Below, piece after piece: positions 16,844 to 26,356 of a stretch of DNA of 64,000 nucleotides. The notes beneath the pieces are model-generated. The model made no database searches. It was not told the origin of the DNA and saw nothing but the letters and a program-made list of their open reading frames with translations. Within the stretch, counting starts at the first letter, position 1. The number at the start of each line of letters is the position of its first letter. A program made the translations under genes and the position numbers. The stretch lies in NCBI GenBank assembly GCA_015075625.1, contig JABTTZ010000001.1, positions 744,001-808,000 on the forward strand, written 5' to 3'. This stretch comes from Anaerolineales bacterium (lineage in GTDB: Bacteria; Chloroflexota; Anaerolineae; Aggregatilineales; UBA2796).

Positions 16844-17034
16844 TGTTCTCATATCGAGTCGATGGTCGAGAAAGTGGTTGTTGACCCCGAGGGAAAAGTG
16901 CCACTGGAATTGCGTCCTCCCTTCGCCCACCGGCAAGAAATCTCTGAGCGGGTGCGCTATCAGGGTGAGGCTGGTGCAGGCAAAACAAAAGCCAGTGAAT
17001 GTGCTGGCTCATGCTCGGATTGGATCCTAGATTG
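16844..17034 (+). pseudogene. C-terminal stub of a probable serine recombinase
   Basis: The frame VEKVVVDPEGKVPLELRPPF then AHRQEISERVR and KTKASECAGSCSDWILDCG resembles the C-terminal end of large serine recombinases. These typically finish with VExVxVD-x-G-x-I/V-x-L and PPF/Y followed by a polar tail. A stop lies just upstream at the MITE edge, and the frame runs into the tRNA gene at 17035. It looks like a remnant of an integrase beside a tRNA. Family assignment is moderate. Confidence 0.45.
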
Positions 17035-17107
17035 TGGGTCCAGTAGGATTCGAACCTACAACCAAACGGTTATGAGCCGCTTGCTCTGACCATTGAGCTA
17101 TGGACCC
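17035..17107 (-). tRNA. tRNA with CAT anticodon, probably tRNA-Ile2 (or elongator Met)
   Basis: 73 bases, full cloverleaf: acceptor GGGTCCA/TGGACCC, anticodon loop CTCATAA, T arm GTAGG/CCTAC. The stretch AGCGGCTCATAACCG then TTTGGTT resembles the tRNA-Ile whose C34 is modified to lysidine more than elongator Met, so Ile2 is favoured. CCA is not encoded. It is first in the minus-strand trio nearest the accessory island and abuts the recombinase stub. Confidence 0.93.
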
Positions 17108-17119
17108 TTGCTGGTTAAG

Positions 17120-17191
17120 AGCGGCAGGCGGGATTCGAACCCGCGACATACAGCTTGGAAGGCTGTCGTTCTACCCCTGAACTACTGCCGC
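17120..17191 (-). tRNA. tRNA-Gly (TCC)
   Basis: 72 bases: acceptor GCGGCAG/CTGCCGC, anticodon loop CTTCCAA, T arm GCGGG/CCCGC with TTCGAAT. The discriminator is U. CCA is not encoded. Confidence 0.96.
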
Positions 17192-17208
17192 ATGGGGGAA
17201 ACCTTCTG

Positions 17209-17281
17209 TCGGGGTGGTCGGACTCGAACCGACGACCTCTACGTCCCAAACGTAGCGCGCTACCAACTGCGCCACACCCCG
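17209..17281 (-). tRNA. tRNA-Pro (TGG)
   Basis: 73 bases: acceptor CGGGGTG/CACCCCG with the C1-G72 pair normal for bacterial tRNA-Pro, anticodon loop TTTGGGA, T arm GTCGG/CCGAC. CCA is not encoded. Confidence 0.96.
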
Positions 17282-26187: not shown

Positions 26188-26261
26188 TCCCGAGGGCTAG
26201 ATTCGAACTAGCGAATGGCGAATTTACAGTCCGCTGCCTTAGGCCGCTTGGCTACCTCGGG
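26188..26261 (-). tRNA. tRNA-Tyr (GTA), archaeal-type features
   Basis: 74 bases. Acceptor CCCGAGG/CCTCGGG with discriminator A, D arm GCC...GGC, anticodon stem-loop GCGGA-CTGTAAA-TTCGC, T arm GCTAG/CTAGC. Bacterial tRNA-Tyr normally has G1-C72 and a long variable arm of ten or more bases. Here the first pair is C1-G72 and the variable loop is only five bases (CATTC), as in archaeal and eukaryotic tRNA-Tyr. CCA is not encoded. An intrinsic terminator follows, so the gene looks expressed. Confidence 0.93.
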
Positions 26262-26356
26262 GCGACTAGTGGGGATGATACCATAGCAAGTGGGGAGCGT
26301 CAACGGTGCGCTCCCCCAAACACCAACCTCTCTTAGCCTAAGTACACCACAGTGAT

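Follow-up and report, generated by a model that had tools for sequence, protein, structure and literature searches.

A tRNA-Tyr and TyrRS of archaeal identity as the probable replacement of the bacterial pair in a Chloroflexota family

Tyrosine is among the few amino acids for which bacterial and archaeal tRNAs follow different rules and, because of this difference, transfer of TyrRS was, to our knowledge, long thought to be blocked, the exceptions known to us being the tiny candidate-phyla bacteria of the CPR (Patescibacteria). The identity rules for tyrosine have been reviewed (PMC9976931). Archaeal tyrosine identity was described in CPR bacteria only, where the variable arm is mostly kept (Mukai et al. 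2017, PMC5370408). In the M. jannaschii TyrRS, G34 is sandwiched by Phe261 and His283 and hydrogen-bonded by Asp286 (PMC10135938).

The window analysed here is a 64,000-nucleotide stretch (contig C1:744001-808000) of a genome of 4.68 Mb, assembled in 5 contigs and 98.46% complete. The features of interest in the window are:
26188-26261, minus strand: tRNA-Tyr(GTA), class I, found by ARAGORN and Rfam RF00005
26157-26183, minus strand: intrinsic terminator with a 12-bp stem, a 3-nt loop and a T tail, directly downstream of the tRNA-Tyr
26275-26303, minus strand: promoter-like TTGACG-17-TATCAT with TG before the second hexamer, a consensus match only

The tRNA-Tyr matches RF00005 with 60.5 bits (gathering score 29), in agreement with the ARAGORN call, and reads CCCGAGG-TAGCCAAGCGGCCTAAGGCA-GCGGA-CTGTAAA-TTCGC-CATTC-GCTAG-TTCGAAT-CTAGC-CCTCGGG-A. 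All seven acceptor pairs are intact; the first pair is C1-G72, the discriminator is A73 and the anticodon loop CTGTAAA holds the GUA anticodon. The variable loop (CATTC) has 5 nt, and the tRNA is thus without both the long variable arm and the G1-C72 pair of bacterial tRNA-Tyr. The preliminary description, which had listed C1-G72, A73, a five-base variable loop and the terminator, was right in each of these details. Orthologues with the same identity elements were recovered in 11 of the 11 sampled genomes of the family, which excludes chance. The promoter-like site lies 13 bp upstream of the gene, one such site being found versus 0.3 expected in shuffled sequences. The window also carries an ordinary tRNA cluster, Met(cat)-Gly(tcc)-Pro(tgg), at 17034-17281 on the minus strand.

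As with the CPR pairs (PMC5370408), the tRNA-Tyr of a bacterium has C1-G72 and the TyrRS is of the archaea/eukarya type, and the enzyme belongs to the same DPANN-rich branch. The present system differs from the CPR pairs in that most CPR tRNAs keep the variable arm, and in that the host has a ~4.7-Mb Chloroflexota genome where the slot of the old tRNA gene is visibly empty. With the P. horikoshii and M. jannaschii systems it shares enzyme architecture, acceptor-recognition residues and the C1-G72/A73/GUA set, whereas the D-arm and A37 of the window tRNA are bacterial-like and Phe261 of M. jannaschii, which stacks on G34 (PMC10135938), is replaced by Asn in the host TyrRS. The bacterial pair of the sister families has a tRNA with A37 and an anticodon arm identical to that of the window tRNA at 13 of 14 positions, but also G1-C72, a 14-nt variable arm and a TyrRS that carries a C-terminal extension missing from the host enzyme and differs from it at residues 132, 174 and 175. 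Our literature search, with most subscription journals outside it, returned no report of an archaeal TyrRS in Chloroflexota or Dormibacterota. Complete replacement of the bacterial pair in large-genome Chloroflexota is new as far as we found, the known precedent being CPR bacteria only, and so, as a lead only, is the loss of Phe261 in lineages with the queuosine enzyme Tgt.

The genome carries 49 tRNAs (RF00005), all of which could be typed. The window gene is the sole tRNA-Tyr; a second one, long-armed or other, as sought at the suggestion of the preliminary description, is missing from this set, and every long-arm tRNA of the genome is specific for Leu or Ser. PF00579 has just two matching proteins in the genome, a TrpRS of bacterial type and a single TyrRS. 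Since the tRNA-Trp is also bacterial (A1-U72, G73) and pairs with the bacterial TrpRS, only tyrosine has switched among these two related systems. A long-arm G1-C72 tRNA-Tyr together with only a bacterial TyrRS, which according to the preliminary description would mark the window gene as a pseudogene, was not seen in the host genome. Two different tRNA-Cys(GCA) genes occur in the same genome, with the D-arms GCCAAG and GCGAAG.

The expectation, also voiced at the outset, that a matching archaeal-type TyrRS would be encoded elsewhere in the genome was borne out by a single gene:
contig C3 of the host genome, 441789-442889 (1432-2667 of locus L032): tyrS, archaeal-type TyrRS, the sole TyrRS

Its product scored 401.6 bits against NF006330 (PRK08560), for which the curated cut-off is 220; among 14 control genomes this cut-off was reached by the four archaea only. 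Against TIGR00234 it scored 112.6 bits, just below the cut-off of 113.8. PF00579 is its only domain match, and a C-terminal S4 domain is absent from both the domain search and the alignment. The best relative in the PDB is the P. horikoshii TyrRS (2cyc; 439 bits, 55% identity), an identity high enough to settle the fold. Residues R132, R174, K175, H283 and D286 (M. jannaschii numbering) are conserved in the alignment; the first three, which we take to contact the acceptor end, are shared with archaea and are replaced by other residues in the bacterial TyrRS of the sister families. The gene lies inside an 832-kb contig beside bacterial-looking genes, presumably encoding, as judged from the ORFs, a CobB-like deacetylase and a DnaQ/DinG-like helicase. 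Across the family, the protein is 63-80% identical. In three archaeal genomes (G557, G565 and G573), an intact TyrRS gene is accompanied by a second TyrRS-like gene broken by one stop codon.

The fate of the bacterial tRNA gene can be read from a tRNA-Thr locus. Six other families of the order, represented by 21 genomes, have a tRNA-Tyr with a long arm, G1-C72 and A73, and wherever the locus is complete this gene sits between tRNA-Thr(tgt) and tRNA-Thr(ggt). In the window's family these two tRNA-Thr genes have remained adjacent, with a spacer of 10-106 nt (10 nt in the window's own genome), and no tRNA-Tyr is found in this spacer in nine genomes, which indicates that the ancestral long-arm gene was lost.

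Each of the 11 family genomes sampled has an archaeal-type TyrRS above the cut-off, compared with none of 50 genomes from seven other families of the order. In a sample of the phylum this enzyme was found in 15 of 400 genomes (14 of them over the cut-off), belonging to four families. In a scan of named genomes the family fell among Anaerolineae- or Chloroflexi-labelled records, such as Chloroflexi bacterium CFX4 and Anaerolinea sp. CH2, and relatives were found in Dormibacterota, Dehalococcoidia-labelled records, CPR and DPANN. Every Chloroflexota or Dormibacterota genome with an archaeal-type TyrRS and a recovered tRNA-Tyr has the short-loop, C1-G72, A73 form of this tRNA.

In a tree of 74 TyrRS sequences, a placement that the preliminary description had also called for, the sole TyrRS of the host lies within the archaeal clade. 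The sequences of the window's family form a single clade (100/100), and those of Chloroflexota and Dormibacterota together form one clade of 35 rows (96/93), whose sister is a WWE3 bacterium (98/93) and which is nested in a set of 58 rows of DPANN, CPR and P. horikoshii enzymes (93/96). Since no switch is seen in the sister families of the order, the simplest reading is a lateral gain of TyrRS by the window's family from a donor among DPANN, CPR or Thermococcus-like lineages. In the window's genome, tRNA-Tyr and tyrS are on different contigs. Two loci of the family, L057 and L054 (the latter being one gene with L087), have the tRNA gene directly upstream of tyrS, as do eight Dormibacterota-type loci; in these adjacent loci it lies ~64-216 nt away from where the matched region begins. 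This adjacency, common to distant lineages, suggests from the relatives that tRNA-Tyr and tyrS moved as one cassette.

The body of the tRNA was compared arm by arm, since whole-tRNA alignment is misleading when a long variable arm is scored as gaps. The 32 distinct tRNA-Tyr gathered from genomes that encode an archaeal-type TyrRS all have C1-G72 and A73 (that of L205 once its gene call, offset by one base, is corrected); the variable loop is short in Chloroflexota and Dormibacterota, and the long arm was found in all six CPR tRNA-Tyr read. The D-arm of the window tRNA, AGCCAAG..AAGGC, is identical at 20 of 20 positions to that of family f87 and at 19 of 20 to that of a sister-family tRNA-Gln(TTG), versus 11-14 of 20 for the archaeal tRNA-Tyr compared. 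Position 37 is A in 32 of the 32 tRNAs, whereas it is G in the archaeal tRNA-Tyr compared, among them that of M. jannaschii; with few archaeal tRNAs in the comparison, an archaeal D-arm and G37 are both absent from the window tRNA. For DPANN, one of the seven matches of a tRNA-Tyr pattern search was true, and DPANN contigs were then read, one fully and one partly. By these comparisons the window tRNA is a mosaic, archaeal in its tyrosine identity and bacterial-looking in much of its body, and it was either remodelled or was never archaeal by descent. The designation "archaeal-type" given to it in the preliminary description thus stands for its identity (C1-G72, A73, short loop) and does not clearly extend to the descent of the gene, given its D-arm and A37. 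An origin from tRNA-Gln alone was considered because all blastn matches in the sister families were tRNA-Gln; it was rejected, for the D-arm is Gln/Cys-like, yet the anticodon arm is close to that of bacterial tRNA-Tyr. With this anticodon arm, the tRNA may have arisen from a bacterial tRNA-Tyr by loss of the variable arm. Two Chloroflexota loci of family f84 (L187 and L188, in G067 and G068) have an AGCTCAG-type D-arm and a TGGTC variable loop, unlike all other Chloroflexota copies; despite this different D-arm, the f84 TyrRS belongs to the same clade as the others.

Combined, these results make it very probable that the window gene is the sole working tRNA-Tyr, with its identity switched to the archaeal rule, that an archaeal-type pair was gained and the bacterial pair lost, and that this TyrRS charges the tRNA. 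The sole tRNA, the sole TyrRS, the phylogeny, the recognition residues, the empty slot and the co-occurrence of tRNA and enzyme are the observed basis. A tRNA-Tyr/TyrRS unit with archaeal identity would have entered the group, the enzyme deriving from a DPANN/Pyrococcus-like archaeal branch also carried by CPR bacteria, and the ancestral bacterial TyrRS and long-arm G1-C72 tRNA-Tyr would then have been lost; passage as a unit, and in this direction, is what we infer. The archaeal-type TyrRS would recognise the window tRNA through A73 and the C1-G72 pair of the acceptor and through G34 of the anticodon, and its lack of an S4 domain would make the variable arm dispensable. The small gap that an assembly of this completeness may contain could in principle hide a genuine bacterial pair in unsequenced DNA, with the short tRNA-Tyr as a pseudogene or accessory gene; with the same tRNA and TyrRS and no long-arm tRNA-Tyr across 11 family genomes, and the Thr-Tyr-Thr slot empty in nine of them, we regard this as highly improbable. 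In metagenome bins, an aaRS gene of archaeal type can come from a DPANN contig assigned to the wrong bin (PMC5370408). Contamination of this kind is nevertheless extremely improbable here, as tyrS lies within its long contig beside bacterial-looking genes, the tRNA gene lies in a 2.1-Mb contig and both genes are conserved family-wide.

The single clade formed by the Chloroflexota and Dormibacterota enzymes would also be expected if TyrRS and tRNA had been retained from the stem of Chloroflexota or earlier rather than transferred. This is improbable, since with only 15 of 400 phylum genomes in four families carrying the enzyme, and the other families of the window's order having a bacterial TyrRS and a long-arm tRNA-Tyr, retention would need very many losses. 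Import of the tRNA gene with its synthetase as an archaeal gene by descent, only lightly adapted, is a less remote alternative that we consider rather unlikely: its acceptor sequence CCC...GGGA also occurs in DPANN tRNA-Tyr (G083 and G076), the gene adjoins tyrS in relatives, and the f84 D-arm is nearer to that of the M. jannaschii tRNA-Tyr (16 of 21), but the D-arm of the window's family and of f87/Dormibacterota agrees with sister-family tRNA-Gln(TTG) at 17-19 of 20 positions versus 11-15 for archaeal tRNA-Tyr, and these tRNAs have A37 instead of G37.

Bacterial Tgt makes queuosine at G34. At residue 261 of TyrRS, the window's family, f84 and most Dormibacterota have Asn, f87 has His, and archaea and CPR bacteria mostly have an aromatic residue. 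Tgt is present in 10 of the 11 genomes of the family, both of f84 and three of Dormibacterota type, and all 15 have Asn261. It was not found in one 820-contig bin, although Asn261 is present there, nor in four f87 genomes (His261) or two DPANN genomes (Phe261). We propose that Phe261 may have been lost because Tgt turns G34 into queuosine; the pattern, which reflects perhaps two independent changes, fits such a retuning of the anticodon pocket and is a lead only. A broader reading of the same sequence comparisons, which we put forward tentatively, is that an identity-switching tRNA-Tyr/TyrRS cassette passed between lineages related to Chloroflexota and later became adapted to the bacterial host through the D-arm, A37 and the loss of Phe261. 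A second Tgt-like gene with one in-frame TGA is present in the window's genome (contig C1, 595668-596726) and in G010 (C16:179697-180773), and the second copy is uninterrupted in G001 and G013.

Pairs of archaeal identity that are adapted to a bacterial host may be orthogonal in E. coli, and the system makes it possible to ask whether an imported synthetase is forced to change by queuosine. With the swap in Chloroflexota of ordinary genome size, the slot of the former gene empty and the sister families unswitched, the family constitutes a natural experiment in the change of aminoacyl-tRNA identity.
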